From Jannaschia pagri (GTDB lineage: Bacteria; Pseudomonadota; Alphaproteobacteria; Rhodobacterales; Rhodobacteraceae): a DNA stretch of 64,000 nucleotides. Of the stretch, positions 3,736 through 31,357 are shown one piece after another. Location: contig NZ_BPFH01000001.1 in NCBI RefSeq assembly GCF_019655435.1, forward strand, positions 248,001 through 312,000, in the 5' to 3' direction. The notes under the pieces were generated by a model. That model made no database searches. It was not told where the DNA came from and saw only the letters and a list, made by a program, of their open reading frames with translations. How positions within the stretch are numbered: position 1 is the first letter of the stretch; every line of letters begins with the position of its first letter. Position numbers and translations under genes: made by a program.

Positions 3736-3748
3736 GGTGATGCCCTCC

Positions 3749-4762: not shown

Positions 4763-6748
4763 CTACGCCACAACCGGAACGCTTGGCACTTCACGTTCAG
4801 AGACCTCAAACTCGGACATCAACGTCAGCATACGGGTCGCCGCTTCCTTAAGGGAGAGGTTCGCCTGCGTCACTTCTTCAAACATTGCCGTGTTCCGCTT
4901 CGTAGCCTCATCAATCTCTCCCAGCGAATGATTTATCTCACCAACGGCAACTGATTGCGCATCGGTTGAGCGCGCCACTTCGCCGGCCCGATCCCTGATG
5001 TCCGCAATGCGGCGGGTCAGGTTTTGGAGCGACTGCCCGGTCCGAGACACCTGCTGTTCCCCGGCTGCGATCTCCTTCGAGCTCTGCTCAATCAGTGTAC
5101 CAATTCGGTGCGCAGCATCGGACGCGCGGCCAGCGAGCGCGCGCACCTCGGAGGCGACCACCGCAAAACCGCGCCCTGCATCTCCGGCGCGGGCCGCCTC
5201 TACGCCCGCGTTTAAAGCCAGCAGATTAGTTTGAAACGCAATGTCGTCGATCACGCCGAGCGTTTCGGAAATCTCAAGGGATACCGACCGAATGGTCGAC
5301 ATGGCGAGGATGGCGTCTTGAACGGCGGTCTCCGCCATCCGCGCATCCTGGTCTGACGCCTGGGCAACCGATCGCATGTCGTCGGTCATTGCCGCTGTCG
5401 CCCGGGTGGTCGCCGCGATTTTGTCCAAAGTAGCTGTCGTAGATGTCAAAGACAGAGCCGTCTGTTCTGTCCGCAGAGCAAGCGACTCCGCCGAAGATGC
5501 AAGACCTCCGGTGTCTTCCAACATCACCACGGCGTGACGGGATAGACCCTGCAAGGCCGCTTCCAGATGACCCGCCATGGCGTTCGTGGACCCTTGAAGC
5601 TCTGCGAAGACCCCATGGTGCTCTCCACCCATGCGAGCGCCTAGCTTCCCCTGCTCCAGTTGACCGAGAACCGATATGACATCATCGATTTCCCGCTGCA
5701 CAAGCGCCAATAGATCGTTCAACATCGTTCGCAAGCGGTGTTGTTCCCGAGGCACTCCGATCACCGCAAGACGCCTTGTGAAGTCCCCCTGCGCCGCCGC
5801 CGAGGCTAAGGCTCCGAGGTCCGTGTGTAACCGGTCAAGCTCTGCGACTTTACGTTCCGCTTGCGCCACCTCTGCCGCAGCGCGCTCCGCAGCCGCAGCC
5901 TGCTCTGCGGCCTCAGCAGCGTCCCGATCAAGGGCAAGACGTGCGGCCTCGGTCTCCGCCTCGGCACTCCGTTTGGCAAGTTCCTGGCGTGCGACAATCC
6001 CGTCCTGGAACACGCCAAGAAGATCCGTGATGGCCTGTACCTCTCGATCGGAGGATCGAGGCATATCCACATCGGTACGATCATCGGCGAGAGCCTCCAT
6101 CACCTTGATAAGCTCTGCAAATGGTCGAGACACTTGAAGGCGCATCAAGCCCAGAACGGCCACGCCAAGGATAAGGGCAAGTGCGAAGGCGCTGAGCCAC
6201 CAAAGCCACCATTCCGAGGCCAGCGCAGCCCGAAGCTGCGCCTTTCCGAGCGTCACCTGTAACTCACCAAAGGCGGGCCCGTCCCGACCGATGGCGGAGG
6301 CAATCGGGACGTTTAAGACGAGCACATCCGCGACGGCTCCGGCATCACCCGCATCAGCGGGACTTGACGCCCTGCCAAGTTCCAAGATGACGTCGTCGAA
6401 TGCATCGATTGCACGGACCGCCATGATGTCGATCCCATCAAGTGTCATGAGATCAGACGTGATTGCCGCGGCTTCTCGGGAGTCATAGGCGCGAAGTGAT
6501 GGGGCCAACCGATCGCTGAGAAGACGCGCCTGCAAATCAGCGGACGCTCGAAACGTTCCCTCCAATTCCCCTGCGAGGCGATCATAACTGAAGGCCACCG
6601 AAACGATCAGACCAACCAGCAATATCAGGGTCGTCAAACCGGCAACACGAATACCAATCCCGCTCAGCATCTTGCGGGGGTCACCCGCGCCGACGGCCCG
6701 AAACGGATGGTGAAAGAAACGCTGTGCCGGGCCGGAAGAAGAAGTCAT
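4763..6748 (-). CDS. methyl-accepting chemotaxis protein (between tufA and rpsJ)
   Basis: A 661-residue membrane chemoreceptor that signals to CheW/CheA. TM1 is at about residues 33-53, a small periplasmic sensor domain at 54-178, TM2 at 180-204, a HAMP region at 205-257, an Ala/Glu coiled coil at 262-312, a second HAMP-like segment at about 315-395, then the MCP signalling domain with the invariant hairpin tip [19 protein letters not shown] (501-519). There is no C-terminal CheR-tethering pentapeptide. The gene interrupts the usual tuf-rpsJ junction. It has the same architecture as the receptor at 27431-29626, which also lies downstream of a tuf gene. No other che gene is in the window; the ligand is unknown. 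Confidence 0.93.
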
Positions 6749-6806
6749 GCCGAGAGCGGTACGGCAAAAACCCTAAGACTTCGTTTTCTGTTTTGTAAAA
6801 ACGACG

Positions 6807-6830
6807 AAGGGCCCCTGTTGGGGGGCCCTT
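6807..6830 (-). terminator. rho-independent terminator of tufA
   Basis: Stem AAGGGCCCC / GGGGCCCTT (9 bp) with a 6-nt loop, 38 bases past the tuf stop, followed on the minus strand by CGTCG and TTTTT. The identical structure follows tufB. Confidence 0.75.
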
Positions 6831-6867
6831 GGAGTGTGTGGGGTGGGCGCCGGGGCGCCCGGTCAGG

Positions 6868-8043
6868 TCACTCGACGATCTTGGACACAACGCCCGCGCC
6901 AACCGTCCGGCCGCCTTCGCGGATGGCGAAGCGCAGGCCCTGCTCCATCGCGATCGGCGCGATCAGCTCAACGCCAAACGCCACGTTGTCGCCCGGCATC
7001 ACCATCTCCGTGCCCTCGGCCAGCTGAACCGTGCCCGTCACATCCGTCGTGCGGAAGTAGAACTGCGGGCGGTAGTTCGCGAAGAACGGCGTGTGACGGC
7101 CACCCTCGTCCTTGGTCAGGATGTAGGCCTCGGCCTCGAACTTCGTGTGCGGCGTCACCGACGACGGCTTGCACAGCACCTGGCCACGCTCAACGCCGTC
7201 ACGGTCGATACCACGCAGCAGCGCGCCAATGTTGTCGCCAGCCTCACCGCGGTCCAGCAGCTTGCGGAACATCTCAACGCCCGTGCAGGTCGTCTTCTGC
7301 GTGTCGCGGATGCCGACAATCTCGATCTCGTCGCCCACGTTGATCACGCCACGCTCCACCCGGCCGGTCACAACCGTACCACGGCCAGAGATCGAGAACA
7401 CGTCCTCAACCGGCATCAGGAACGGCTGGTCAACGGCCCGCTCGGGCGTGTCGATGTACTCATCAACAGCTGCCATCAATTCCTTAATTTTCTCTTCACC
7501 GATCTCGGGGTTGTTCCCCTCCATCGCCGCCAGGGCAGAGCCCGCAACGATCGGAATGTCGTCGCCGGGGTAGTCGTAGGACGACAGAAGCTCGCGCACT
7601 TCCATCTCCACGAGCTCCAGCAGCTCCTCGTCGTCGACCTGATCGACCTTGTTCATGAAGACGACCATCTTCGGGATGCCAACCTGGCGGCCCAGCAGGA
7701 TGTGCTCGCGCGTCTGGGGCATCGGGCCGTCGGCGGCGTTCACAACCAGGATCGCGCCGTCCATCTGAGCGGCACCGGTGATCATGTTCTTCACGTAGTC
7801 GGCGTGGCCGGGGCAGTCGACGTGGGCGTAGTGGCGCGCCTCGGTCTCGTATTCCACGTGCGCCGTCGAGATCGTGATCCCGCGGGCCTTCTCTTCGGGC
7901 GCGCCGTCAATCTGGTCGTAGGCCTTGAAGTCCCCAAAGTACTTCGTGATCGCCGCCGTCAGCGTCGTCTTCCCGTGGTCAACGTGGCCAATCGTGCCAA
8001 TGTTAACGTGCGGTTTCGTCCGTTCAAACTTTGCCTTCGCCAT
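6868..8043 (-). CDS. tufA: elongation factor Tu (copy A)
   Basis: The 391-residue GTPase delivers aminoacyl-tRNA to the ribosome. The G domain shows GHVDHGKTT (P-loop), DCPGHADY (G3) and NKVD (G4), followed by the two beta-barrel domains. The start [10 protein letters not shown] is preceded by GAGGAG. It ends the str operon (rpsL-rpsG-fusA-tufA). The protein and DNA are identical to the copy at 30124-31299. Confidence 0.98.
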
Positions 8044-8071
8044 GGAAGGTCTCCTCTATCTTATCTGGGGA

Positions 8072-8121
8072 GCGGGATGACCCCGCCCTACGGTGATCGG
8101 TCAGGCGGGGTTACCCCCGCC
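8072..8121. repeat. paired GC-rich palindromes between fusA and tufA
   Basis: Two hairpins sit side by side: GCGGG/CCCGC (8072-8086) and GGCGGGG/CCCCGCC (8104-8121). The first CCCCGCC (8081-8087) can also pair with GGCGGGG (8104-8110), giving a mutually exclusive third structure. The core belongs to a family of palindromes found in most gaps of this ribosomal region. Confidence 0.65.
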
Positions 8122-8128
8122 GCACCGT

Positions 8129-10246
8129 TTATGCGTACTTCTTCTGGATCTCTTCCGAGAGGTTCTGCGGAACCGGATCGTAGTGATCGAACTGCATGGT
8201 GAACTGCGCACGGCCCGAGGACATGGACCGCAACGTGTTGATGTAGCCGAACATATTGGCCAGCGGCACGAAGGCGTCGATCGCGATGGCGTTGCCGCGC
8301 GGTTCCTGCCCCGAGACCTGACCACGACGGGACGTCAGGTCACCGATGATGCCGCCCGTGTATTCCTCGGGCGTGATCACTTCGACCTTCATGACCGGCT
8401 CGAGCAGCTTGGCGCCCGCTTTCCGCATCCCTTCACGCATCCCCATGCGGGCCGCGATTTCGAAGGCCAGGACCGAGCTATCCACGTCGTGGAACTTACC
8501 GTCCAGCAACTGCACCTTGAAGTCGATCACAGGGAAGCCAGCCAACGGACCGGAGTCCATGACCGACTGGATGCCCTTTTCGACGCCCGGAATGTATTCC
8601 TTCGGCACCGCACCACCGACGATCTTGGACTCGAACGAGTAGCCTTCGCCCGCTTCGGTCGGCTGGATGAGCAGCTTGACTTCGGCGAACTGACCAGAGC
8701 CACCCGACTGCTTCTTGTGGGTGTAGGTATGCTCCACCTCGTGACCGATGGTCTCGCGGTAGGCCACCTGGGGCGCACCGATGTTGGCCTCGACCTTGAA
8801 TTCGCGCTTGAGGCGATCAACCAGGATGTCCAGGTGAAGTTCGCCCATGCCCTTCATGATGGTCTGACCGGACTCCAGGTCGGTCTCCACGCGGAAGGAC
8901 GGGTCCTCAGCGGCCAGGCGCTGCAGGCCCTGGGACATCTTCTCTTGGTCGGCCTTGGTCTTGGGCTCGACGGCGATTTCGATAACCGGATCGGGGAAGG
9001 TCATCGTTTCCAGAACGACCTGATCGTTCACAGCCGACAGGGTGTCCCCGGTCGTCGTGTCCTTCAGGCCGGCCAGCGCGATGATGTCACCTGCAAAGGC
9101 TTCGGTGATTTCCTCACGGTTGTTGGAGTGCATCATCATCATACGACCGACGCGCTCTTTCTTACCCTTCGTAGTGTTCTGGAGCGTGTCGCCCTTGTTC
9201 AGAACGCCGGAGTAAATGCGCGTGAAGGTCAGCGAGCCAACGAAGGGGTCGTTCATGATTTTGAATGCCAGGCCCGCGAAGGGCATCTCGTCGTCCGCGC
9301 GACGGGCGATGTTCCGCTCTTCGGTCTCGTCACCAGGCTTAAAGCCCATGTAGTCAACAACGTCCAGCGGGCTGGGCAGGTAGTCGATGACGGCGTTCAG
9401 CAGGGGTTGCACGCCCTTATTTTTGAACGCAGAGCCACCCAGGACCGGCACAAAGGACAGCGACAGCGTCCCCTTGCGCAGCAACTTGCGCAGGGTCGGC
9501 ACGTCGGGCTCGTTGCCTTCCAGGTACTCCATCATGGCTTCGTCGTCCATTTCGACGGCAGCCTCGACCATCTTGCCACGCCACTCGTCAGCCATGTCCT
9601 TGAGGCTGTCGCGGATGGGGGCTTTGATCCAGGAGGCGCCCAGGTCTTCGCCCTGCCACAGCCACTCTTCCATGGTGACCAGGTCGATCAGGCCTTCCAG
9701 CTCCGACTCGGCACCAATCGGGATACCAACGGGCACGGCGCGGGCGCCGGTCCGGTCCTCGATCATGTTGACGCAGTTAAAGAAATCAGCGCCGATCTTG
9801 TCCATCTTGTTGACGAAGACCATCCGCGGAACCTTATAGCGGTCGGCCTGACGCCACACGGTTTCGGTCTGGGGCTCAACACCGGCGTTGGCGTCGAGCA
9901 CGCAGATCGCTCCGTCGAGAACGGCCAGGGAACGTTCCACCTCGATGGTGAAGTCCACGTGGCCGGGGGTGTCGATGATGTTCATCCGGTGCTTTTCGGT
10001 ATCGGCCGTCTGGCCGTCTTCCGTCCGCTCCCAGAAGGTGGTGGTCGCAGCCGAGGTGATGGTGATCCCCCGCTCCTGCTCCTGCTCCATCCAGTCCATC
10101 GTGGCGGCGCCGTCATGGACTTCGCCGATGTTGTGGGACTTGCCGGTGTAGTACAGGATCCGCTCCGAGCAGGTGGTTTTACCTGCGTCGATGTGGGCCA
10201 TGATCCCGAAGTTACGGTATCGGTCGAGGGGATAATCGCGTGCCAT
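8129..10246 (-). CDS. fusA: elongation factor G
   Basis: The 705-residue translocase GTPase catalyses tRNA-mRNA movement and, with RRF, ribosome recycling. It shows [16 protein letters not shown] (P-loop), switch [16 protein letters not shown] (G4) and the domain IV-V region ending [13 protein letters not shown]. Length and start are standard. It lies in the str operon between rpsG and tufA, with palindromic gaps of 84 and 85 bp on either side that may tune the relative output of S7, EF-G and EF-Tu. Confidence 0.98.
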
Positions 10247-10280
10247 TTGGCTGTTCCTCAGGTCAGAGGTGAAACGGGTA

Positions 10281-10303
10281 CGGGGGCCCTATAAGAGCCC
10301 CCG
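10281..10303 (-). repeat. GC hairpin between rpsG and fusA
   Basis: CGGGGGC / GCCCCCG with a 9-nt AT-containing loop in the 84-bp rpsG-fusA gap. No U-tract follows on the minus strand, so it is probably an mRNA-processing or stability element rather than a terminator. Confidence 0.5.
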
Positions 10304-10330
10304 ATGTCTGCGTCTATATAAGGGCGAGAC

Positions 10331-10849
<519 letters not shown>

Positions 10850-10872
10850 CTACGATCGGGCGTAGCCCGGGA

Positions 10873-11244
10873 TCACTTCGGACGCTTGGCGCCGTACTTG
10901 GAGCGACGCTGACGGCGATCCTTGACACCCTGGGTATCCAGAACACCGCGCAAGATGTGGTAGCGCACACCGGGAAGGTCTTTCACACGACCGCCGCGGA
11001 TCAGGACCACGGAGTGCTCCTGCAGGTTGTGGCTTTCACCGGGGATGTAGGAGATGACCTCGAACCCGTTGGTCAGGCGCACCTTGGCGACTTTCCGCAT
11101 GGCCGAGTTCGGCTTCTTCGGCGTGGTGGTGTAGACGCGCGTGCAGACGCCGCGCTTCTGCGGGCAGCTTTCGAGGTGCTGCGACTTGGAGCGTTTGACC
11201 TTGGGCTGCCGCGGTTTGCGGATCAGCTGCTGGATGGTGGGCAT
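10873..11244 (-). CDS. rpsL: 30S ribosomal protein S12
   Basis: The 123-residue S12 controls decoding accuracy. It begins [13 protein letters not shown] and has both streptomycin-site loops in wild-type form ([11 protein letters not shown] and [12 protein letters not shown]), so no ribosomal streptomycin-resistance change is present. It is the first gene of the str operon here because four unrelated genes separate it from rpoC; a promoter is proposed at 11448-11476. Confidence 0.98.
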
Positions 11245-11648
11245 GGACAGTGTCCCCGTTTGTTCATCTCAATCTCGTGGTTCGGCAGCCGACAGCCCAA
11301 AACGCGAAACCCGCAGTCACCCGGAATTCCGACCTGGGCGATGCGGTTGGCTGACAGAGGATGCGGAAAGCAGTATCCCGGATCTTGACCGACGGTTCTG
11401 GTGTGCCGAACCGGACGCAAAGCTGCCCCCGGACCGAATTGCTGCCGCGTGTAGAAGAATCGCTCCCGGGTGTCAACGCGATCCCTGCGGGCCCAGAAAA
11501 CAACGGGTTTGCGCGGGTCACCCCCGGAGCGCCCTGCGTACACCCCCCGTACAGACGCGCGGCAGACGGCGGAGCGTTGGCTTGACGGGCGGCCCGCTCT
11601 GCCCATGTGGCCTTGCCCTGAGGCGCGGGGCTAGGCACGAGTAAGGTC
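11245..11648. other. 404-bp divergent regulatory gap (rpsL / rhamnosyltransferase-like)
   Basis: No gene is seen. The gap separates rpsL (minus) from the glycosyltransferase-like gene starting at 11649 (plus) and should hold both promoters; only the rpsL-directed one can be proposed with confidence. Confidence 0.6.
11448..11476 (-). promoter_or_regulatory. candidate str-operon promoter
   Basis: A consensus minus-strand -35 TTGACA (11476-11471), 17-bp spacer and -10 TACACG (11453-11448). It lies about 200 nt upstream of rpsL. This is the best sigma-70-type match in the gap. Confidence 0.55.
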
Positions 11649-12464
11649 ATGGCCAACCTCCAGATCATCGCGTTGACCCGATTTGCATACCCCGGTCTGG
11701 GTGGGTTTCAAACGGAACATGCTTCGGTCGCGGAGCGTCAGGCCCACCTTTGGGCAGAGGACCGGCTGGAGGCGCGGTTCCGCACGTTGGAACACGTGAG
11801 CCTGCGGACGCTGGCCGCCCAGACCGACCCCGACTTCAAGACACTGATCGTGACTGGCGATGCCCTGCCAGAGCCCTGGCGAGGGCGTCTGTTGGACCTC
11901 GCCGCAGGGCTTCCAGGGGCGGAGGTCGTGTTCCATCCGCCCATGAACCAACGCCATGCCATGGAAGAAATCGTCAACGCCCGCATCGATCCGCAGGGCC
12001 CGCCGGTCATGCAGTTTCGCCATGACGACGACGATGGGGTCGGACGTGATTTTGTGGCCTTGGCCCGCGCCGTCTTTGCCGACGTGCGCCCCTTGTGGCG
12101 ACGACATGGGCGGTTGGCCATCGACTTCAACCGGGGTTGGATGCTGCGGCTGACAGCGGACGGGCCACTGGTGGAGGAGGCAGCGCGCACCCATCTGGGT
12201 GTGGCCCAGGCGCTGATCCTGCGTCCGACGATCCGACGGACAGCGGTCCACTTTCCCCACCATCGGCTGGGGCTACTGATGCCTTCGGTCACCGTGCCGG
12301 AGCCCATGTGGCTGCGCGGCGTAGACGGGACGAACGACAGTCGGATGGACGGCGCGCTTGACCGGTTGCGCCCAGCGGACGCGGAGACCCGGGATGGGCT
12401 TGCCGAGCGGTTCGGGCTGGATTGGGAGGCCATAGGCAGGAGCTTTGGCGGCACGACCGGGTAG
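11649..12464 (+). CDS. putative rhamnosyltransferase-family protein
   Basis: The 271-residue protein looks like the putative rhamnosyl transferase family common in Rhodobacteraceae. It has a Rossmann-like N-terminus (LQIIALTRFAYPG), the shared block EDRLEARFRTLEHVSLRTL (37-55), AAQTDPDF, and a run of four aspartates (D126-D129) that probably serves as the metal/nucleotide-sugar DxD motif. HHRLG and GTNDS near the C-terminus match the paralogue at 13412-14278 (HRRLG, GHNDS). No signal peptide or membrane segment is seen, so it should act in the cytosol. The acceptor and the sugar are not known. It converges on the exporter gene ending at 12549. Confidence 0.7.
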   Translation: MANLQIIALTRFAYPGLGGFQTEHASVAERQAHLWAEDRLEARFRTLEHVSLRTLAAQTDPDFKTLIVTGDALPEPWRGRLLDLAAGLPGAEVVFHPPMNQRHAMEEIVNARIDPQGPPVMQFRHDDDDGVGRDFVALARAVFADVRPLWRRHGRLAIDFNRGWMLRLTADGPLVEEAARTHLGVAQALILRPTIRRTAVHFPHHRLGLLMPSVTVPEPMWLRGVDGTNDSRMDGALDRLRPADAETRDGLAERFGLDWEAIGRSFGGTTG

Positions 12465-12518
12465 GCAGGTCGGTTTCCCGGTCGAGATGCGGCGCGGCGT
12501 CCGCAGAGGACGGTGTCG

Positions 12519-12548
12519 GCATATTTGACGGAACATCGAAGGGGGGCG
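12519..12548. repeat. dispersed GCATATTT...GGAACATCGAAGG repeat, copy 1
   Basis: The 30-bp element GCATATTT-gac-GGAACATCGAAGG followed by a G-run recurs with one indel at 55358-55387. It abuts the stop codon of the exporter gene, between two convergent genes. Confidence 0.7.
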
Positions 12549-13415
12549 CTAGGACGCTGTGGCCCGGGTTTCGCGCCAGAGGGTGTAGAGGCCCGTGGCA
12601 ACCACCAGGCCTGCCCCGAGCAGCGTGAGGCCATCGGGCCAATCGCCGAACACGAAAAGCCCGAGCAGCAACCCCCAGATCATCGCCGTGTAGCGGAACG
12701 GTGTGACCACGGCGATGGCGCCCACGCGCATGGCCATGACCGAAAAGAGATAGCCGCCGATGATGAAAAGGGCCGCCAGGGCGGTCAGCCCGCCCTGCCC
12801 CGCTGTCGGCATCTGCCATGGCTCAAAGAGCGACAGGACCAGCCCCAGGACCATGACCCCCGCTGCCGTCAGGATCGCGACCTTGAGGCTCGGCACTTCG
12901 GGCGAGAGGCGGCGCGTGATGAGGTCGCGCGCGGTGATGATCAGCACCGTCAGAACGGCGAGGAGCGACCAGTGGTCAAAGCCCGCCGCCCCCGGTCTGA
13001 CGATCAGGAGGACCCCCAGCAGGCCGACGGCGATGGCGGTCCAGCGGCGCCAGCCCACGCGCTCGCCCAAAAAGAACGCTCCGGCCGCTGTGATTGTCAG
13101 GGGCAAGGCCTGCAAAACCGCCGTGATGTCGGCCAATGGCATATGGGTGAGCGCGATGATGAAGGGCAGAAAGGCGGCGACCTCGGCTAAGGCCCGGGCA
13201 ACCACATAGGGTCGATCCGCACGGGGGATCGGTTGGCGCAAGGCGCCAGTGATATGGGCCAAAGCGATCAGCAGAGCCGTCGCCCCGAGGCCGCGTAGGA
13301 ACACCGCCTGAAAGGTCGGCAGCCCTTGGGCAAGCAGTTTGATACAAGCATCGTTGAGCGTGAAGGTCGCCATCGACGCCATCATGAAGAGAGCCCCGCG
13401 CAGGTTCTCGGTCAC
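12549..13415 (-). CDS. EamA-family (DMT) small-molecule exporter
   Basis: The 288-residue protein has ten hydrophobic helices in two EamA repeats, as in drug/metabolite transporters (MMASMATFTLNDACIKLL at the start; LGERVGWRRWTAIAVGLLGV in the middle; FGDWPDGLTLLGAGLVVATG at the end). The GTG start at 13415 overlaps the upstream stop codon as GTGA, so it is translationally coupled to the rhamnosyltransferase-like gene. The substrate is unknown; the tight coupling hints at export of a product made by the ATP-grasp or glycosyltransferase enzymes, which is an inference. Confidence 0.85.
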   Translation of the reverse strand: MTENLRGALFMMASMATFTLNDACIKLLAQGLPTFQAVFLRGLGATALLIALAHITGALRQPIPRADRPYVVARALAEVAAFLPFIIALTHMPLADITAVLQALPLTITAAGAFFLGERVGWRRWTAIAVGLLGVLLIVRPGAAGFDHWSLLAVLTVLIITARDLITRRLSPEVPSLKVAILTAAGVMVLGLVLSLFEPWQMPTAGQGGLTALAALFIIGGYLFSVMAMRVGAIAVVTPFRYTAMIWGLLLGLFVFGDWPDGLTLLGAGLVVATGLYTLWRETRATAS

Positions 13416-14278
13416 GTAAGCGGTCCCTTTGGCCCGAGGTCGCGGCCTTCGCCGCGCGGGGGCTCTGGCATCAGCGAGATCGCGGCGGCCTCGTCCAGGG
13501 CGAACCGCTCTCGCATCAATTTGCGCCCGCGCCGTGTCGCCATCTCCACCGCATGGGGCGGGATGGAGCGACCGCTGTCGTTGTGGCCATGGAGCGTGCG
13601 CAGGAACATGTAGTCGTCCCCCGGCTCCATATAGGTCGGAATGTAACACCCTAGCCGCCGGTGGTTGTAGCGATAGATGCAGGTGGGCAGGTCGGCGGTC
13701 GTGACCATCGCGCAGGCGAGGCCCAGGGGCTGGGGCTCTCGGAACTCATGGAACGGTTGCTCCGGGTCGTAGAGGTTCCAGTAGATGCCTCGGCTGAAGG
13801 CGATGGCTGTGGGCTGATCGGCGAGGCCCGCGTGCAGCATCCGGTCGGCCAGGTTTCGCGTCTTGGCAATGTAGTCGGTGGACACGGCGTCATCATCGTC
13901 GATGCGGAAGCCTGTGATATGGGTCGTGCCCTCATCGGTGCCGCGCCGAAAGCTGCGTTTCGCCGCCGCAAGCGCGCCCATGCGGTCCAGGAAAACGACC
14001 TTGATCCAGGTAAATCGTTGCTCCAACCCCCGCAACTGGGAGCGCCACCGCATCGGCAGGCTGGTTCCACCCAGGATGACCAGGCGAAAATCCATGTCGG
14101 TCTGGGCGGCCAGGGACGGCAGGGTAATCGTCTCCAGGTAGAGAAACCGCCGCAGGAGGCGGTCTTCGTCGTAGAGATGGGCCTCGAGCGCGGCCTCATC
14201 CATCTGACTAACGGAGAAGCCCTCCTTCGCGGGATAGCTGAAGCGCATGACGCCGATGATCTGATTGCGGATGGTCAT
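13412..14278 (-). CDS. putative rhamnosyltransferase-family protein
   Basis: The 288-residue paralogue of the gene at 11649. It has RFSYPAKEGF, the block YDEDRLLRRFLYLETITLPSL, four aspartates at 127-130 (FRIDDDD) as a probable nucleotide-sugar/metal motif, and HRRLG plus GHNDS near the end. The ATG at 14278 is where similarity to the paralogue begins; the open frame continues upstream without homology. The gene sits in an apparent operon: ATP-grasp gene (47 bp upstream), this gene, EamA exporter (GTGA overlap). Function in surface glycan synthesis is inferred from the family name only. Confidence 0.7.
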   Translation of the reverse strand: MTIRNQIIGVMRFSYPAKEGFSVSQMDEAALEAHLYDEDRLLRRFLYLETITLPSLAAQTDMDFRLVILGGTSLPMRWRSQLRGLEQRFTWIKVVFLDRMGALAAAKRSFRRGTDEGTTHITGFRIDDDDAVSTDYIAKTRNLADRMLHAGLADQPTAIAFSRGIYWNLYDPEQPFHEFREPQPLGLACAMVTTADLPTCIYRYNHRRLGCYIPTYMEPGDDYMFLRTLHGHNDSGRSIPPHAVEMATRRGRKLMRERFALDEAAAISLMPEPPRGEGRDLGPKGPLT

Positions 14279-14325
14279 GGGGTGGTGGTGGCACGGGGGG
14301 CGGCGGGGCGGCAAGGGAAAGGCGA

Positions 14326-15114: not shown

Positions 15115-15183
15115 TCCGTGGGTGTCGGGGGAGCAGGACCGGCTGTCAATCGGGCAGTGGGCGGATTGGGCCCGATAATGCGA

Positions 15184-15210
15184 AAAGGCCCCCGCATCGC
15201 GAGGGCCTTT
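15184..15210 (-). terminator. rho-independent terminator of rpoBC
   Basis: Stem AAAGGCCC / GGGCCTTT with an 11-nt loop and a TTTT tail on the minus strand, 20 bases past the rpoC stop. It isolates the ATP-grasp/glycosyltransferase genes from the rpo transcript, or makes them low-level read-through genes. Confidence 0.75.
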
Positions 15211-15229
15211 CCAAGAATATACGGTGCAA

Positions 15230-19456
<4,227 letters not shown>

Positions 19457-19494
19457 GTCTTAACCTTTTGAAAAGGGTGCATTTGGAAGAAGGC

Positions 19495-19513
19495 GGCGGG
19501 GGCTTGCCCCGCC
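19495..19513. repeat. palindrome in the rpoB-rpoC gap
   Basis: GGCGGGG / CCCCGCC with a 5-nt loop, in the 68-bp gap between rpoB and rpoC. Member of the recurring palindrome family of this region. Confidence 0.65.
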
Positions 19514-19524
19514 CTGCCCTGCGA

Positions 19525-23664
<4,140 letters not shown>

Positions 23665-23839
23665 GTGGTGCTCGCCTTTATCATGTTTCGCGCCGCGTCT
23701 TCCGTTGGGCACCGGAAGGCCACGGCCTGCGAATTGGTCACTTGAGGGGAACCATCTGGCGCATCGTCCCACGGATGCGCCCCCGTTCCAGCCTCCTGAC
23801 CGGAAAAGCCGCCCTATGGCGCCTTTTCGAGACAGGAGC

Positions 23840-23868
23840 GGGTGGCCCCGGATTTCCCGAGGCCACCC
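23840..23868 (-). promoter_or_regulatory. stem-loop in the rplL-rpoB gap
   Basis: GGGTGGCC / GGCCACCC (8 bp) with a 13-nt loop, in the gap where many bacteria have an attenuator or RNase III site that sets the ratio of L7/L12 to RNA polymerase. There is no U-tract directly after it, so processing is as likely as termination. Confidence 0.45.
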
Positions 23869-23886
23869 CCATTCGTCAGTGTGGTG

Positions 23887-23906
23887 CGGCGGGGATCACC
23901 CCGCCG
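23887..23906. repeat. palindrome after rplL
   Basis: CGGCGGGG / CCCCGCCG (8 bp) with a 4-nt loop, immediately 3' of the rplL stop codon. Same family as the palindromes at 8104, 19495 and 26302. Confidence 0.65.
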
Positions 23907-23912
23907 ACCCAA

Positions 23913-24290
23913 TCACTTCAGTTCGACTTCGGCGCCAGCTGCTTCCAGCTTGCCCTTGATCTCTTCGGCTTCGGCCTTGTCGACGCCTTCCTTGACGGCC
24001 TTGCCGCCGGCTTCGACCAGGTCCTTGGCTTCCTTCAGGCCGAGACCCGTGATGCCGCGGACTTCCTTGATCACGTTGATCTTGGAGGCGCCGGCCGACT
24101 TCAGGATGACGTCGAATTCGGTCTGCTCTTCGGCGGCGCCACCGGCGTCGCCAGCAGGACCGGCCATCATGACCGCGCCGCCAGCGGCGGGCTCGATGCC
24201 GTACTCGTCCTTCAGGATGGTTTTCAGTTCTTGGGCTTCCAGCAGGGTCAGGTTGACGATGCTTTCGGCGAGTGCTTTCAGATCAGCCAT
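23913..24290 (-). CDS. rplL: 50S ribosomal protein L7/L12
   Basis: The 125-residue stalk protein recruits translation GTPases. It has the N-terminal dimerisation part ([19 protein letters not shown]), the Ala/Gly-rich hinge and the conserved C-terminal domain ([32 protein letters not shown]). It follows rplJ by 75 bp, as in the standard rplJL unit. Four or six copies of L7/L12 per ribosome explain why this gene usually needs higher expression than its neighbours. Confidence 0.98.
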
Positions 24291-24365
24291 TGTTCGATTT
24301 CCAGTTTCGTTAAGATGTGTTCCGGTGTCGCGGTTTCAACCCACGACGAGGGATGACACGAGGGA

Positions 24366-24884
24366 TCAGGCGGCTTCGCCCTTTTCCTCGATGGTCGACA
24401 GGATGCTTGCGATGTTCGAAGCAGGCGCGCCAATGGCACCGGCGATGTTCGAGGCAGGCGCACCGATGCAGCCAACGATGGAGGCAATAAGCTCCTCGCG
24501 GGACGGCATCTGAGCGACGGCTTTCACACCGGCGACGTCCAGAGCGTTCTCACCCATCGCACCGCCCAGGATCTCCAGCTTGGAGTTGTCCTTGGCATAT
24601 GCGTCGATGACCTTGGCCGCAGCCACGGGGTCCTCGGAATAGGCGAGCACGGTCATGCCCGTCAAGTAATCTGCGATGGAAGCCGCAGGTTTCCCCTCCA
24701 GGGCGATCTTGGCGAGCTTGTTCTTGGCCACGCGAACGGACCCGCCCGCTTCACGCATACGCGCGCGCAGGTCCTGCATCTCTGCAACTGTCATGCCCTC
24801 GTAGTGGCTAACCACCACGACGCCAGAGCTTTCGAAGATCTGGCCGAGTTCCTCGACCACTTTCTCTTTCTGGGCTCTATCCAC
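24366..24884 (-). CDS. rplJ: 50S ribosomal protein L10
   Basis: The 172-residue L10 anchors the L7/L12 stalk to 23S rRNA. It begins [14 protein letters not shown] and contains [18 protein letters not shown] and [13 protein letters not shown]. The C-terminal helix that carries the L7/L12 dimers shows a near-perfect tandem repeat of IGAPASNIA, encoded by two copies of about 33 bp at 24400-24470. In other bacteria L10-L7/L12 represses its own mRNA through the leader; the 241-bp upstream gap has hairpins that could serve this role. Confidence 0.98.
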
Positions 24885-25125
24885 AGTTTCACTCCAAGTG
24901 TGGGGGTTGCCCCCCGGCTCATTCAGGGCGGATCATTCCGCCCCCTCAGGGTCCAATGAAGGGCCCCGTCCAGATCGCCCGACGCATGTCGGAAATCTTT
25001 CATGGGTCCCATCTCAGGAAGGACTTAGCGGGGTCGCCCCCTGCCCTCCGTCTCGGACAGAACGGGGCGTTGCCGCCCCGCTGATCGGCGCGTGCCTTGC
25101 GACACGCCCCAAACCTCTTGGCTGA
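24885..25125 (-). promoter_or_regulatory. probable rplJ leader with hairpins
   Basis: The 241-bp rplA-rplJ gap holds several small GC hairpins: CGGGGCG/CGCCCCG with a TTGC loop (25063-25080), GGGG/CCCC (25030-25040) and GGGGG/CCCCC (24902-24915). Autogenous L10 leaders sit at this position in most bacteria. The specific L10-binding kink-turn was not identified by eye. Confidence 0.5.
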
Positions 25126-25833
25126 TTAGGCCGTCTCGTTTCCGGTCGCGCTATCGACCGACACCGACACGCCCGGCCCCATGGTGGAGCTCAGCGAAAT
25201 CTTCTTCATGTAGGCGCCTTTGGCACCGGCAGGCTTGGCCTTGGAGACCGCGTCCACGAAGGCTAGCAGGTTTTCTTGCAGCTTGGCCTCGTCGAAGGAG
25301 GCCTTGCCGATGCCCGCGTGCACAACGCCGTTCTTCTCGGCCTTGAACTGAACCTGACCACCTTTGGCCGCCTTGACGGCCTCGGTCACGTCCATGGTCA
25401 CAGTGCCGACCTTGGGGTTCGGCATCAGGTTCCGGGGGCCCAGCACTTTACCCAAACGACCGACGATCGGCATCATGTCAGGGGTGGCGATGCAGCGATC
25501 GAACTCGATCTTGCCCGACTGAACCGTCTCCATCAGGTCCTCGGCGCCGACGATGTCGGCCCCGGCGGCCTGAGCTTCTTCGGCCTTGGGCCCGCGGGCG
25601 AAGACGGCGACGCGAACGGTCTTGCCAGTGCCGTTGGGCAGGCTGACCACTCCGCGGACCATCTGGTCAGCGTGACGGGGGTCAACACCCAGGTTCATGG
25701 CGATCTCGACCGTCTCATCGAACTTGGTCTTGGCATTGCCCTTGACCAGCGCGATGGCCTCTTGGACCGAGATGTCTTCCTTGCCGGCGAAGGCTTCGCG
25801 GGCGGCTTTGGTGCGCTTACCGAGTTTTGCCAT
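25126..25833 (-). CDS. rplA: 50S ribosomal protein L1
   Basis: The 235-residue L1 forms the mobile L1 stalk and helps release E-site tRNA. It begins [15 protein letters not shown] and has the signature region [20 protein letters not shown]. The ATG at 25833 overlaps the rplK stop as TGATG; a GTG one codon earlier is also possible. In E. coli L1 represses rplKA, but the leader element was not recognised here. Confidence 0.97.
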
Positions 25834-26282
25834 CACTTCACCTCGATGCCCATGGAGTTCGCGGACCCCACGATGATCTTCATGGCCTGCTCGACGTCAT
25901 TGGCCGACAGGTCCTTCATCTTTGCTTCAGCGATCTCACGCACCTGCTTGACGGTAACGGTGGCGACGGTCTCGCGGCCCGGGTTCTCGGCACCGCGCGG
26001 ACGGTTGCGCTTGCCCACCGGCTTCAGGCCAGCGGCCTTCTTCAGATAGTAGGACGCAGGCGGCGTCTTGATGTCCATGGTGAAGGACTTGTCCTGGTAA
26101 TACGAGATTACCGTGGGGCACGGGGCGCCCTGCTCCATCTCCTGCGTCTTGGCGTTGAACGCCTTGCAGAATTCCATGATGTTGATGCCACGCTGACCGA
26201 GGGCGGGACCCACGGGCGGCGAGGGGTTGGCCTGACCTGCAGGGATCTGCAGCTTCATGGTGCCGACGAGTTTCTTCGCCAT
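25833..26282 (-). CDS. rplK: 50S ribosomal protein L11
   Basis: A 149-residue L11 of the GTPase-associated centre, needed for RelA-type stringent sensing. It begins [20 protein letters not shown] and contains the proline-rich loop [20 protein letters not shown] that contacts thiostrepton-site rRNA. It directly precedes rplA (overlap of one base) and follows nusG by 126 bp. Confidence 0.97.
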
Positions 26283-26301
26283 TGGCTTTCTCCTTTACGG
26301 C

Positions 26302-26317
26302 GGCGGGTGACCCCGCC
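26302..26317. repeat. palindrome in the nusG-rplK gap
   Basis: GGCGGG / CCCGCC with a 4-nt TGAC loop, followed by CTAC. It belongs to the same recurring family as those at 8072, 10831 and 19495. Confidence 0.6.
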
Positions 26318-26408
26318 CTACCTATCGTGCCCCGAAGGACGGTGAGGCCGTGGTTCGATGGGCCCTTGGGCCACCTCCCACGTCCGTTGCGCGCCAAAGC
26401 GCGCGGCG

Positions 26409-26942
26409 TCACGCGGCTTTTGACACCTGCGTGAATTTCAGTTCGACGGGCGTTGCCCGCCCAAAGATCGAAACGCTGACCTTGAGGCTTTGCGCCTCGT
26501 CATCCACATCTTCGACCTGACCGGAGAAGCCCTCGAACGGCCCATCGGTCACGTTCACGTCTTCACCAACATCGAAGGTGATCAGGCTGCGCGGCGCTTC
26601 TTCGCCCTCCTGAACCCGGTTCAAGATCTGGTTCACTTCTGCGTCGCGCATGGGCATCGGGCGCCCCTGGGGCCCGAGGAACCCCGTCACGCGATTGATC
26701 GAGTTCACGAGATGGTAGCCTTCGTCCGACATCTCCATCCGAACCAGCACGTAGCCGGGCATGAAACGGCGTTCAGACGTGACTTTCTTGCCCCGACGGA
26801 CCTCGAGCACCTCTTCGGTTGGGACCAAGACCTCTTCGATCTGATCCTCAAGCCCTTGCTCTTCAATGGCTTGGCGAATCTGCTCCGCAACACGCTTTTC
26901 GAAGTTGGACAGGACGCTGACAGAATACCAACGTTTCGCCAT
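26409..26942 (-). CDS. nusG: transcription antitermination factor NusG
   Basis: The 177-residue protein has the NGN domain (MAKRWYSVSVLSNFEKRVAEQ; FMPGYVLVRMEM) and a C-terminal KOW domain (VTDGPFEGFSGQVEDVD). NusG speeds RNA polymerase and links it to Rho or, through the KOW domain, to S10 (encoded at 3749-4057). It follows secE with a 187-bp gap, which is longer than in most bacteria. Confidence 0.98.
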   Translation of the reverse strand: MAKRWYSVSVLSNFEKRVAEQIRQAIEEQGLEDQIEEVLVPTEEVLEVRRGKKVTSERRFMPGYVLVRMEMSDEGYHLVNSINRVTGFLGPQGRPMPMRDAEVNQILNRVQEGEEAPRSLITFDVGEDVNVTDGPFEGFSGQVEDVDDEAQSLKVSVSIFGRATPVELKFTQVSKAA

Positions 26943-27129
26943 GAGTTATGCCCGCCTCTTCTCGCGTGTCTCATCCACCCTACGTGGCGGACGTGAAATA
27001 GCGCGCATTGCGAATCAATACGCGCCACAAATTGGTGTTCGAGATGCCTTACGCTTGCCAGTCGGATGTTGCAAGCACGTCAGCCGCTCTCCTCAGGGAC
27101 CTAGGGAAGCCGCCACACGGATCATCACG

Positions 27130-27324
27130 TCAGAACGACTCTAGGACCGTCGTGAGACCAGTCCGGATCAGAAAATCTACGAAAAAGAAAAAAGCCGCTG
27201 CGATGATCGCAAGCAAGAAAACCATCACCGTAGTCAGGGTCACTTCGCGCCGCGTGGGCCAAGTAATCTTTCCAACCTCGGCGCGGGTCTGCTGCACAAA
27301 CTGTATCGGGTTCGGCGTCGCCAT
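27130..27324 (-). CDS. secE: preprotein translocase subunit SecE
   Basis: The 64-residue single-span SecE stabilises SecY. It has the amphipathic N-terminal helix with the signature QQTRAEVGKITWPTRREV and one membrane helix (VMVFLLAIIAAAFFFFVDFLI). This short alphaproteobacterial form lacks the two extra helices of E. coli SecE. A promoter is proposed just upstream, which fits its separation from tufB and tRNA-Trp by a chemoreceptor gene. Confidence 0.96.
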   Translation of the reverse strand: MATPNPIQFVQQTRAEVGKITWPTRREVTLTTVMVFLLAIIAAAFFFFVDFLIRTGLTTVLESF

Positions 27325-27352
27325 CGTTCATTTCCCTCTGAAGACAGGCAGT

Positions 27353-27380
27353 ACTTAAGAGGTCTGCCAAGAACGCGCAA
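27353..27380 (-). promoter_or_regulatory. candidate secE-nusG promoter
   Basis: Minus-strand -35 TTGCGC (27380-27375), 16-bp spacer, -10 TTAAGT (27358-27353). It lies 30 nt upstream of the secE start codon. The same layout is seen before tufB (TTGCGC-N16-TTAGAC) and mcd (TTGTCC-N16-TTAAGT). Confidence 0.5.
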
Positions 27381-27430
27381 GCCAACCGGACGCAGCGCTG
27401 TGCGCATCGCGCGTGGAGACGCATCGCGTC

Positions 27431-29626
27431 CTAGTTAGCGGAGGCGCGGGAAGGAGAGGGCCCATGACAGATCGCCATGTCCCATTTCCGAACTTCTTCG
27501 GCATCCGCAGTCAAAACTCCGAACTCTTCTACGTGGTCTAGGGCCGGTGCCTCTGGATTAGATGTCGCGCTGAAACGCGCGGACGGCAAGCCAGCATGGT
27601 CTTCCGCCGATAGCCCCCCCGCCTCGAAGCGTTCGAACTTTTCGATCTCAGCCAAGATCTGATGGGCGGCAGCCTTAAGGGAAAGATTCGCAGTGGACAT
27701 TTCCTCGAACATGGCGGTGTTTTGCTGCGTGGCCGTGTCGATTTCACCCATCGCGCGGTTTATTTCCGCGACGGACCCAGACTGGTCGTTCGCGGCTAAC
27801 GCAATCTCGGCAACTTGATCACCGATCCTGTCGATGCGCTCCCCAAGGGTGCCAAGGGTGTCACCTGTACGGGCAACGCGCTGCACTCCCAGATTGACCT
27901 GGTCAGAACTGGTGGAGATCATTTCACCAATCTGTTGAGCCGCATCCGAAGCCCGCTGCGCAAGCGCACGGACTTCGGAGGCCACCACCGCAAATCCACG
28001 TCCCGCGTCACCCGCACGCGCTGCCTCGACCCCAGCATTCAGCGCCAAAAGGTTGGTCTGAAATGCAATGTCGTTGATGACAGACAGCGTCTTGGAAATT
28101 TCTGTCGATGCGAGCTGAATTTCTCTCATACTTTCGATGGCTTGCTGCACCACGAGGTCGCTTTGCCGAGCGTCGTCCCGTGCCGCCTCCGTAAATCCCT
28201 TCGCATCTTGGGCCAGACGCGCGGTCGCCGCGATGGACCCAGTGATCTGCTCCAGAGCCCCGGCCGTTTCGGCCAGCGAACCTGCCGTGCCCTCGGTCCG
28301 TTTGGAGAGCTCTTCGGCCGAAGCTGAGAGATCGCTTGTTTCATCCAGGATCTCAGTCGCATGGCGATGAAGATCGACGAACGCGGCCTGGGTTCGGGAT
28401 GCAGCGCGATTGACCGCGTCCTGCAGTGCCGCGAACACACCGCTTCGTTGTCCGCTCAACCGCACACTAAGCTGTCCCTCTCCCAGAGCTGTGGTCAACT
28501 CGATGACATCCGCAAACTCCTGGGAGATCTGCTGAAAATGTCCGTTCAACATGGTGCGTAGAACTTGCTGGCTGTCTGGCACGCCTTCGAGGGGCATCTT
28601 GGAGGAAAAGTCGCCAGCGTCCGCCGACGTCAGCAGAACCTCTAGATCCTGTTTGAGACGTGCATCTTCTTCCAGCCGTTGCTCGGCTTCCTGCTCCCTT
28701 TCGACGGCCTGCGCCGCAGCTGCCGCAGCCTCGGCGGCGGACGCACGCTCCGTTTCCGCGCGGAGCTGCGCCGCTTGGTCCTCGGCCTGTCGACTCCGTT
28801 CGGCATAGGCCTTGCGCTCAAGAAGGGCTTCGCGAATGACAGTGAGCGCATGGTTTATGGCGGCCACCTCCGCCGTTCGGGATGGCGGCAGGGCTTGATC
28901 CAAGCGGTCTTCGGCAATTTCTTGGAGCGATGCCGCAGCCTGCTGCAACGGCACAGAGATATAGAACCGAAGCATTCCGTAAACCGTTAGGAAAGCACCA
29001 AATATCAATCCCGCCTGCACAATCAAAAGCGTCGTAGAGACACGTCCGTTGGCGGCGGATAGCCCGCGCGTATCATAGAGGAACTGAACGGTCTGTTGCC
29101 CGCCGCTGCTGGGCGCTTGAAAGACACGCTGCACAACGTGGAGGCCGTTCTCCACGTCGATGGCCATATCGCCTTGGACGGGTCCGACCGAGACCGGAGT
29201 GCCTGAAATCGTCTGCGACGCCTCCGGAGCGACGTAGCTCGCCATCCGCCCACCAGCCTCGTCGAACACGCGGATGCCGACTAACGGCCCAGCCTCGTCG
29301 CGCACGACGGCCTCCAACACGGCATCGCTCAGGGGACCATTTGCCTTTTCCGCCCGCAACCATCTCACTAGGTTGGACGACTCAGATTGGGAAAACCCCT
29401 GAAACTGTTGTCCAAGTTCGAGTTGAACCTGCCGCGCCGTCACCCAATACATCAGGGCACATCCAGCGATCAGAAGAACAGCGGTGGCCGCGAAAGACCG
29501 CGCCATGAACGACATGTGCCAAGGGTGCTTAGGCGCCTCCGCCCGCGCAGGCGCCGTTCGGGGCTCCGCAGGCGCCTCATCTCGCGCGGAAACCTCTGGG
29601 GCGGGCGGTGTCGAAAGGCGGTCCAT
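27431..29626 (-). CDS. methyl-accepting chemotaxis protein (between tRNA-Trp and secE)
   Basis: A 731-residue chemoreceptor. A Pro/Ala-rich cytoplasmic N-terminus (1-42) precedes TM1 (about 44-62), a periplasmic sensor domain (63-195), TM2 (197-220), a HAMP region, a long Ala/Glu/Gln coiled coil (272-335), a second HAMP-like segment (about 340-415) and the signalling domain with the tip [19 protein letters not shown] (518-536). No CheR pentapeptide at the C-terminus. The start at 29626 follows GAGGAT; an in-frame upstream codon lacks a ribosome-binding site. It matches the receptor at 4763 in layout and in the segment RTMLN...G.L..R..G...GVFA.LQ, so the two are paralogues. The ligand is unknown. 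Confidence 0.93.
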
Positions 29627-29914
29627 TGTCGATATCCTCGTCGGCGGTCGAGGGTTTGGTAGCTGCAATCCCTGAACAAATCCTTTCTGGCCCCGAATGA
29701 TGAACTTGTTCGGACCTTATGCGGCCCAGCTTGGCAAACGCGGATCATAAGATGTCGCAAATCAGCGGCGATACGTCAGCACGCGCGAGGCGTGATGCGT
29801 CGCTTGTCGATCACTTGCCAAACAGAGAATCGACGACGGTCGCAGGGTCTTCCCACGAAGCTGGGAGCCTCAGCGAACACAATCTGTTACTGATGACGGA
29901 CTGTCTTGGAGGTC

Positions 29915-29990
29915 TGGCAGGGGCAGCAGGATTCGAACCCGCGACCTACGGATTTGGAATCCGTTGCTCTACCAACTGAGCTATACCCCT
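29915..29990 (-). tRNA. trnW: tRNA-Trp (CCA anticodon)
   Basis: A full cloverleaf reads on the minus strand: acceptor AGGGGTA/TGCCCCT, D-arm GCTC...GAGC, anticodon stem ACGGA/TCCGT with loop TTCCAAA (anticodon CCA), T-arm GCGGG TTCGAAT CCTGC. Discriminator G and an encoded CCA tail (29917-29915) are present. The tufB-trnW-secE-nusG order is widely conserved, here with a chemoreceptor gene added between trnW and secE. Confidence 0.97.
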
Positions 29991-30062
29991 ACGGTGGGAG
30001 CGGCATAATGCGCCGCCGCTGCAGGTGCAAGGGACTTCGTTTTCTGTTTTGTAAAAACGACG

Positions 30063-30086
30063 AAGGGCCCCTGTTGGGGGGCCCTT
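30063..30086 (-). terminator. rho-independent terminator of tufB
   Basis: Stem AAGGGCCCC / GGGGCCCTT, identical to the one after tufA. It lies between tufB and tRNA-Trp, so the tRNA depends on read-through or on a promoter inside the repeat. Confidence 0.75.
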
Positions 30087-30123
30087 GGAGTGTGTGGGGT
30101 GGGCGCCGGGGCGCCCGGTCAGG

Positions 30124-31299
30124 TCACTCGACGATCTTGGACACAACGCCCGCGCCAACCGTCCGGCCGCCTTCGCGGATGGCGAAGCGCAGGCCCTGCT
30201 CCATCGCGATCGGCGCGATCAGCTCAACGCCAAACGCCACGTTGTCGCCCGGCATCACCATCTCCGTGCCCTCGGCCAGCTGAACCGTGCCCGTCACATC
30301 CGTCGTGCGGAAGTAGAACTGCGGGCGGTAGTTCGCGAAGAACGGCGTGTGACGGCCACCCTCGTCCTTGGTCAGGATGTAGGCCTCGGCCTCGAACTTC
30401 GTGTGCGGCGTCACCGACGACGGCTTGCACAGCACCTGGCCACGCTCAACGCCGTCACGGTCGATACCACGCAGCAGCGCGCCAATGTTGTCGCCAGCCT
30501 CACCGCGGTCCAGCAGCTTGCGGAACATCTCAACGCCCGTGCAGGTCGTCTTCTGCGTGTCGCGGATGCCGACAATCTCGATCTCGTCGCCCACGTTGAT
30601 CACGCCACGCTCCACCCGGCCGGTCACAACCGTACCACGGCCAGAGATCGAGAACACGTCCTCAACCGGCATCAGGAACGGCTGGTCAACGGCCCGCTCG
30701 GGCGTGTCGATGTACTCATCAACAGCTGCCATCAATTCCTTAATTTTCTCTTCACCGATCTCGGGGTTGTTCCCCTCCATCGCCGCCAGGGCAGAGCCCG
30801 CAACGATCGGAATGTCGTCGCCGGGGTAGTCGTAGGACGACAGAAGCTCGCGCACTTCCATCTCCACGAGCTCCAGCAGCTCCTCGTCGTCGACCTGATC
30901 GACCTTGTTCATGAAGACGACCATCTTCGGGATGCCAACCTGGCGGCCCAGCAGGATGTGCTCGCGCGTCTGGGGCATCGGGCCGTCGGCGGCGTTCACA
31001 ACCAGGATCGCGCCGTCCATCTGAGCGGCACCGGTGATCATGTTCTTCACGTAGTCGGCGTGGCCGGGGCAGTCGACGTGGGCGTAGTGGCGCGCCTCGG
31101 TCTCGTATTCCACGTGCGCCGTCGAGATCGTGATCCCGCGGGCCTTCTCTTCGGGCGCGCCGTCAATCTGGTCGTAGGCCTTGAAGTCCCCAAAGTACTT
31201 CGTGATCGCCGCCGTCAGCGTCGTCTTCCCGTGGTCAACGTGGCCAATCGTGCCAATGTTAACGTGCGGTTTCGTCCGTTCAAACTTTGCCTTCGCCAT
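30124..31299 (-). CDS. tufB: elongation factor Tu (copy B)
   Basis: The 391-residue EF-Tu is identical in protein and DNA to the copy at 6868-8043. The ATG at 31299 is the conserved start ([10 protein letters not shown]), preceded by AGGGG; the open frame reaches 16 codons further upstream by chance. It heads the tufB-trnW-secE-nusG series. Two tuf copies, one in str and one before trnW, is the common proteobacterial state. Confidence 0.98.
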
Positions 31300-31357
31300 G
31301 ATGGGCCCCTGGTCTCTGGTGGGCACCCCTCGGGCACCCGGATTCACATCGCGCGCC

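Follow-up and report, generated by a model that had tools for sequence, protein, structure and literature searches.

Two chemoreceptor genes behind two tuf genes

The str-S10 and rpoBC regions of Jannaschia pagri lie on the minus strand of the 64,000-nucleotide stretch of DNA analysed here (the window: NCBI RefSeq assembly GCF_019655435.1, contig NZ_BPFH01000001.1, positions 248,001 to 312,000). Each of the two tuf genes in the window has a gene for a methyl-accepting chemotaxis protein (MCP) on its 3' side: receptor A behind tufA, and receptor B behind tufB and trnW. The gene order along the minus strand is tufB - trnW - receptor B - secE - nusG - ... rpoB - rpoC ... fusA - tufA - receptor A - rpsJ, with both tuf genes and both receptors on that strand. 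Here, we report that this placement is real and not due to chance and that the two receptors are old paralogues; the idea of a recent duplication of a tuf-receptor block fails, a coupling of the receptors to growth rate is unsupported, and tuf may drive an exchange of flanking DNA. The features concerned are as follows (TM, transmembrane segment; ORF, open reading frame).

6868..8043, minus strand: tufA, elongation factor EF-Tu (391 amino acids), from ORF and translation; identical to tufB over 1176 bp
30124..31299, minus strand: tufB, EF-Tu, from its ORF; the same as tufA in 1176/1176 bp
6777..8044, minus strand: tuf identity tract, copy A; 100% over 1268 bp against copy B (blastn)
30033..31300, minus strand: tuf identity tract, copy B (blastn against copy A)
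4763..6748, minus strand: chemoreceptor A (661 amino acids); TM 27-56, Cache/PAS-like sensor, TM 180-208, HAMP-like stretch, MCP signalling domain 461-615
27431..29626, minus strand: chemoreceptor B (731 amino acids from the ATG); TM, Cache/PAS-like sensor, TM, HAMP-like stretch, MCP signalling domain
29915..29990, minus strand: trnW (tRNA-Trp, CCA), between tufB and receptor B
3749..4057, minus strand: rpsJ (S10), the next recognised gene 3' of receptor A
27130..27324, minus strand: secE (64 amino acids), adjoining receptor B downstream

The tuf identity tract (1268 bp) runs from 1 bp 5' of the ATG to about 91 bp 3' of the stop codon, and the receptors start 119 bp (A) and 497 bp (B, past trnW) from the tuf stop. 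The mechanical ORF of receptor B starts with a TTG at 29668, which falls within the promoter-like motif described below (29658-29686), and the ATG at 29626 is therefore its likely start. The sequence-only reading of this DNA had described the two receptors and the identical tuf pair and had judged the parallel placement unlikely by chance, which is borne out: the genome has seven MCP-domain matches, of which A and B alone possess two TM segments (four contain no hydrophobic stretch and the remaining one contains one), yet the start of each is less than 0.5 kb from a tuf stop, and relatives show this arrangement too.

Architecture of the receptors

A and B are membrane chemoreceptors, with a two-TM architecture and a modelled fold class that are computed. 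The MCP signalling domain (PF00015) is found in both over the cut-off (MCPsignal, 137 and 148 bits), and in the alignment its hairpin stretch is largely invariant across 16 tuf-linked receptors, which come from a sample of 20 genomes of the genus, J. pagri included (other genomes are cited by handles such as G003). By hydropathy, two TM segments flank the sensor in A and B; a third weak hydrophobic stretch of receptor A (136-154) is a sensor strand in the structure model. The previously proposed layout of TM - sensor - TM - HAMP - coiled coil - HAMP - signalling domain holds overall, with HAMP-like as the safer wording for the two HAMP stretches: in the Pfam search, A and B match HAMP only below the cut-offs, and in B the second HAMP goes unmatched. 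Among the 16 related receptors, HAMP is matched at E<=1 in 15 and HAMP_2 likewise in 15 (best values 3.5e-8 and 1.7e-7).

No Pfam sensor-domain family was matched in A or B. The AlphaFold2 models of the two sensors (predicted local distance difference test, pLDDT, 75 and 80) resemble Cache/PAS-like domains, namely WalK, LuxQ, TlpQ, CitA and PctD, among the chains ranked highest by Foldseek, beyond which other families may exist. The modelled fold has the long N-terminal helix and the one PAS-like antiparallel sheet of a single-Cache domain. With two TM segments, a Cache/PAS-like sensor model, HAMP-like stretches and the MCP hairpin, A and B are like single-Cache-type MCPs (PF00015); they differ from these in lacking a Pfam sensor-domain match, in sitting behind tuf or trnW, in forming a clade seen in one genus, and in a sensor that diverges very fast (5-33% identity among the 16 receptors over the aligned sensor parts). 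A and B presumably sense ligands through this domain.

Two variants were seen in relatives. Receptor B of G009 (L076, ORF 2416-4128) has TM segments at 54-84 and 88-110 and hardly any periplasmic loop, and its sensor domain seems to have been lost. Receptor B of J. pagri, G003 and G009 shares a C-terminal tail that the other aligned receptors do not have; as a guess, this could be a docking peptide.

Divergence and descent of A and B

The 16 tuf-linked receptors form one clade, with support of 100/100 against 18 other MCPs and again 100/100 against six outgroup receptors, which confirms that A and B are paralogous. Identity between the two falls from 46% in the cytoplasmic part to 14% in the sensor. 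The split is old, because only 55/160 third bases agree at identical degenerate residues, with synonymous sites near saturation.

This bears directly on the proposal that a tuf-receptor block was duplicated recently in the J. pagri lineage, an idea that draws on the identical tuf copies and the parallel arrangement. A tree of the receptors had been named as the refuting check. In the approximately unbiased (AU) test, the groups of which were chosen after the first tree had been seen, A and B of J. pagri as sisters are rejected with p = 5.3e-54, which rules the recent duplication out; the 14% sensor identity, the 55/160 third bases and the end of the shared DNA about 91 bp past tuf likewise stand against it, and we regard such an event as extremely improbable. 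The gene-order check also goes against the block: position B (trnW-receptor-secE) is spread through the genus (13/20), and position A (tuf-receptor-rpsJ) is filled in three species. In the same AU series, neither a single clade of all A receptors (p = 0.23) nor a single clade of A and B from the A-carrying species, i.e., one old copy event (p = 0.20), is rejected.

The tree of the B receptors shares 4/10 splits with the species tree (built from rpoB/rpoC/rplA/nusG, stop signs in the aligned housekeeping proteins being set to X), and 0/5000 label shuffles reach that value. To judge from these trees, B is inherited vertically and old in the genus. The three carriers of A (J. pagri, G003, G009) form a species clade (81/94). 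Receptor A could have entered that clade by transfer from a different species of the genus, a tuf-receptor fragment recombining at tufA; the best tree, which puts J. pagri A and G003 A among the B receptors of other species, would fit transfer within the genus, and the sensor of A is nearer to those of the B receptors of G019 and G016 (26%) than to that of B in J. pagri (14%). The support for this placement is modest, however, duplication within the clade (p = 0.20) and one A clade (p = 0.23) both fit, and since the three carriers make up a species clade, the transfer would also need to be old. We consider it somewhat unlikely.

Distribution of the two positions

Position B is filled in 13/20 genomes, on both sides of the deepest fork in the species tree, and is empty in four (G002, G007, G013, G014), where trnW and secE lie on one stretch. 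Position A is filled in 3/20 (J. pagri, G003 and G009) and empty in 14 complete tuf-rpsJ junctions, which are 386-2955 bp long; no receptor was seen in two incomplete junctions (G011, G016), and in G005 rpsJ was not found. The tuf-rpsJ junction had been taken as otherwise conserved; in this genus it is not, as these 14 receptor-free junctions of very different length show.

Side observations on these junctions are the following. In G013 (L216), the trnW-secE junction is filled by an ORF of 1020 amino acids, which on inspection by eye resembles a combined restriction-modification enzyme. In G007 and G009, the tuf copies are about 350-365 kb apart, versus the usual distance of about 23 kb, with a large rearrangement between them.

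Outside the genus, the family was searched in one genome per genus (295 genera, that of J. pagri included), with at most four candidates scored in each. Twenty of the stronger matches, taken without strict ranking, were read with up to about 3 kb on each side, several being limited by contig ends, and none is close to tuf, trnW, secE, nusG or rpsJ; 29 nusG loci of other genera (of 275 found) have no receptor match within about 1.5 kb upstream, or less at contig ends. Among the matches listed in a scan of named genomes (80 loci), none is more than 47% identical. In this partial survey, the receptor-behind-tuf/trnW arrangement is thus seen in one genus only, and a literature search on chemoreceptors beside tuf found no paper.

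Candidate promoters and the tuf terminator-like site

Between the tuf genes and the receptors lie two kinds of candidate signals:

6807..6830, minus strand: terminator-like site of tufA within the identity tract, a 9-bp stem followed by a T-rich tail; one site, against a mean of 1.0 in shuffles of the 501-bp region
30063..30086, minus strand: terminator-like site of tufB; same sequence as the tufA site; three sites in the 3-kb region, against a mean of 2.8 in shuffles
6758..6786, minus strand: promoter-like motif of receptor A, which scores 9.7 and overlaps the tuf identity tract with its 10 upstream bp
29658..29686, minus strand: promoter-like motif of receptor B with the pattern AAAG-N6-TTCAG-N10-TACC, lying 3' of trnW and 5' of the ATG; leave-one-out score 25.8

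The motif was noticed by eye upstream of the receptors and afterwards tested with a weight matrix. Its 29 bases, AAAG-N6-TTAAG-N10-TATC, are found in 16/16 receptors, 3' of trnW at position B or of the tuf terminator-like site at position A. Scores are 15-33 for the 13 B receptors, the 11 training sequences being scored leave-one-out and G012 and G001 standing outside the training set (23.3 and 26.2), and 9.2-11.4 for the three A receptors. In G012 and G001, the long ORF has its first ATG 5' of the motif, and the true starts should therefore be later than assumed. Background over 3.04 million positions is 49 matches at >=9.5 and one at >=20, a slight undercount because positions without T at motif position 12 are skipped; the shuffle rate comes from mononucleotide shuffles. 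On both strands of the window, the top scores are those of receptor B (28.3) and receptor A (9.7). In J. pagri A, the tuf identity tract extends over the first 10 motif bases and thus ends inside the motif.

What kind of promoter this may be is suggested by flagellar genes. The same layout stands 5' of the flagellar rod gene flgB (PF00460) in all four flagellar loci read (J. pagri, G003, G010, G014; 10.8-16.3), and a weaker match (11.8) precedes the J. pagri flagellin gene. A genome-wide pattern search gave three single-mismatch matches: receptor B, flgB and one other place. The layout of a CtrA-type promoter, i.e., half-elements 6 bp apart near -35 and a -10 with A, is present in 16/16 receptors as a layout only, weakly at A. 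A sigma-70 scan found nothing near receptor A and, near B, only two matches, both inside the receptor gene and on the opposite strand; pattern searches upstream of the receptors (sigma-28, sigma-54, full CtrA site, RpoH, each as a simple pattern) gave none shared. Of the other MCP loci of J. pagri, four of five have no motif match at >=9.5. Marginal matches (9.5-9.8) occur in the loci L272 and L278.

In Rhodobacter sphaeroides, CtrA dependence of flgB2p rests on mutagenesis and chromatin immunoprecipitation, according to the available part of that study (PMC6180460). The element-N6-element-G-N10-(-10) layout given there for flgB2p is the same as in the receptor motif, and the core TTTCTAAAGGAATC is common to flgB2p and to flgB of this genus; the receptor motifs match in layout and not in the exact letters, flgB2p scoring 5.3 with the receptor matrix. 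In Phaeobacter inhibens, 9/12 MCP genes are downregulated in CtrA-phosphorelay mutants (PMC12363192, as far as its available text goes). The che genes are controlled there too, whereas in our genus 8/9 che loci are without the motif, and that text mentions no tuf linkage. Judged by sequence and by these analogies, A and B would each be transcribed from a promoter of their own, most likely a CtrA-activated one of the flagellar type, with a predicted transcription start for each receptor, and would probably be turned on together with the motility genes.

The competing view, that receptor levels are tied to growth rate by read-through from tuf, had been put forward from the sequence. The receptors do lie on the same strand and a short distance downstream of tuf, the terminator scan is not above chance, and transcription terminators are rarely perfect. 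Against read-through stand the identical terminator-like hairpin after both tuf copies, the conserved promoter-like motif in 16/16 receptors, and the G010 receptor, which stays at trnW-secE with no tuf found within 2.4 kb upstream. With shuffled sequence giving about as many sites, the terminator argument is one of placement and not of existence. Read-through is unlikely to be the main source of receptor transcripts, and we hold coupling to growth rate very unlikely. This suggests that the neighbour of a highly expressed gene need not be co-expressed with it.

A common chemotaxis system

Genes with a CheW domain are matched in 18/20 genomes of the genus, in 17 of them over the cut-off, G002 and G007 being the two without a match; flagellin is matched in 20/20. 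A CheA at least 50% identical to that of J. pagri occurs in 12/13 receptor genomes, J. pagri included, versus 1/7 without a receptor (G008), p = 0.0012, where the 50% line was drawn after the values had been seen and the species in the test share ancestry. The receptors seem to belong to one common chemotaxis system and tend to be missing where that system is; A and B would then couple to CheA.

Exchange of DNA between the tuf sites

The identity between the two tuf sites reaches past the stop codon in most genomes compared, by 91 bp in J. pagri, 97 bp in G003, 175 bp in G009, 110 bp in G018 and 96 bp in G006, and by 149-279 bp at 98-99% in G019, G002 and G014; it is absent in G013 and G001 and less clean in G007 and G008. 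A small gene facing tuf is found in 18/41 junction stretches, at both sites in G012, G013, G014 and G019. The two copies in G014 are 97% identical and sisters (100/100), and the block they share, 346 bp at 89%, lies close behind the tuf tract at B and about 0.9 kb further at A; the G013 copies are sisters too (94/97), the tree resting on 63 columns. To judge from these sequences, the small-protein gene was apparently copied between the tuf sites within a genome twice (G014 and G013), and the copies in G012 and G019 look like old paralogues. Its product has about 60-100 amino acids, a start that by eye is signal-peptide-like and a conserved end, DDLTLGQIAAIK...IEAIIANN; the one protein searched had no NCBIfam match. 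A CorA-type gene (one blastp cluster) sits at position A in G001, G006, G014, G016 and G017 and at position B in G007; the G001 copy matches PF01544 with 171 bits, and the G016 copy matches the ZntB model with 208 bits, under its cut-off of 292. Three families, i.e., receptor, small protein and CorA-type, are thus each found behind both tuf sites in the genus.

Because relatives show signs of copying of flanking DNA between the tuf sites, copying via tuf is plausible for the receptors as well. The suggestion that a receptor was moved between loci through the tuf repeats accordingly stands as a plausible one in view of the relatives, and it is not established for the receptors themselves. The tuf 3' flanks could instead be merely permissive insertion sites at which two paralogous receptors arrived independently, and other genes do sit there in the genus (the CorA-type transporter, the small-protein gene and other ORFs); the occurrence of three separate families at both tuf sites, one of them looking as if copied between them within a genome twice, argues against this, and we think it unlikely.

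Conversion of tuf is a classic case of concerted evolution and has been studied for the tuf genes themselves. In Salmonella, the duplicate tuf genes evolve in concert by gene conversion, with the tract blocked by large sequence differences, as the available part of that report describes (PMC5485169). Both there and here, two tuf copies are kept alike; the difference from what that part describes is that here the identity goes on for about 90-280 bp past the stop in most pairs and that in some genomes an adjacent gene seems to have been copied with it. Tentatively, and at odds clearly short of even, one may take the near-identical tuf pair for a built-in exchange system, in which recombination initiated within tuf carries the DNA behind one copy to the other, by copying or by swapping, unrelated cargo families (chemoreceptor, small-protein gene, CorA-type transporter) thereby reach both sites, and the identity tract usually stops near the terminator, leaving the cargo free to diverge. 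If true, tuf would serve to duplicate and diversify accessory genes, sensors among them. A new side of the tuf pair would be that accessory genes ride beside tuf, some apparently copied between the sites, and the genus offers a natural system in which conversion-tract end, cargo spread and sensor divergence can be traced over 20 species.

Proposed history of the locus

We give a probability of about 0.6 to the following account: A and B are an old MCP pair, B ancestral at trnW-secE and A placed once behind the other tuf, with promoters of their own and a shared CheA/CheW. With a conserved signalling hairpin and periplasmic sensors of the Cache/PAS-like kind that diverge fast, the two MCPs would feed the CheA/CheW common to most of the genus. 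Receptor B would date to near the base of the genus and would have passed down vertically with repeated losses. Receptor A would have arisen once, in the ancestor of J. pagri, G003 and G009, when a receptor gene was put behind the other tuf copy, most likely by way of recombination in the near-identical tuf pair. A and B would have been separate for long, the identity tract ending just past the terminator and short of the receptors, and each would be expressed from its own promoter, most likely of the CtrA-activated flagellar type.

A number of observations weigh against this account or parts of it. As to descent, the best tree nests J. pagri A and G003 A among B receptors of other species and keeps G009 A separate, with support of 92/75 and weaker in one tree and 83/50 in the other, and no trnW or secE remnants were found beside receptor A, only chance-level matches. 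As to distribution, the assemblies of G008, G011 and G017 are broken at the B junction, with no receptor seen there, and G010 (L083) keeps trnW-receptor-secE, yet tuf was not found in the 2.4 kb 5' of trnW; the place of the receptor there is tied to trnW-secE and not to tuf itself, and the second tuf copy of G010 may have been lost or moved. G015 has a receptor but a very divergent CheA (33%). As to expression, the terminator scan gives no more sites than shuffled sequence in both tuf regions, the receptor A motif is weak (9.7, an unrelated match at 1030 in the window reaching 9.3), and the genome-wide pattern search is without excess (17 matches versus 22 in the reversed control). No match at >=9.5 occurs in 8/9 che loci, the matches of 15.3 and 11.5 in the J. 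pagri che locus (L270) have no ORF close downstream on their strand, and the same holds for the top match of the J. pagri flagellar locus (20.3, L271 15066-15094). With che matches either missing or lacking an ORF, the motif is not a general chemotaxis promoter.

Other elements of the window

Two RNA elements of known Rfam families are found on the minus strand of the window, both above the cut-off: an L2-Alphaproteobacteria ribosomal protein leader (RF03142) at 521-585 and a Rhodo-rpoB RNA (RF03074) at 23694-23789.

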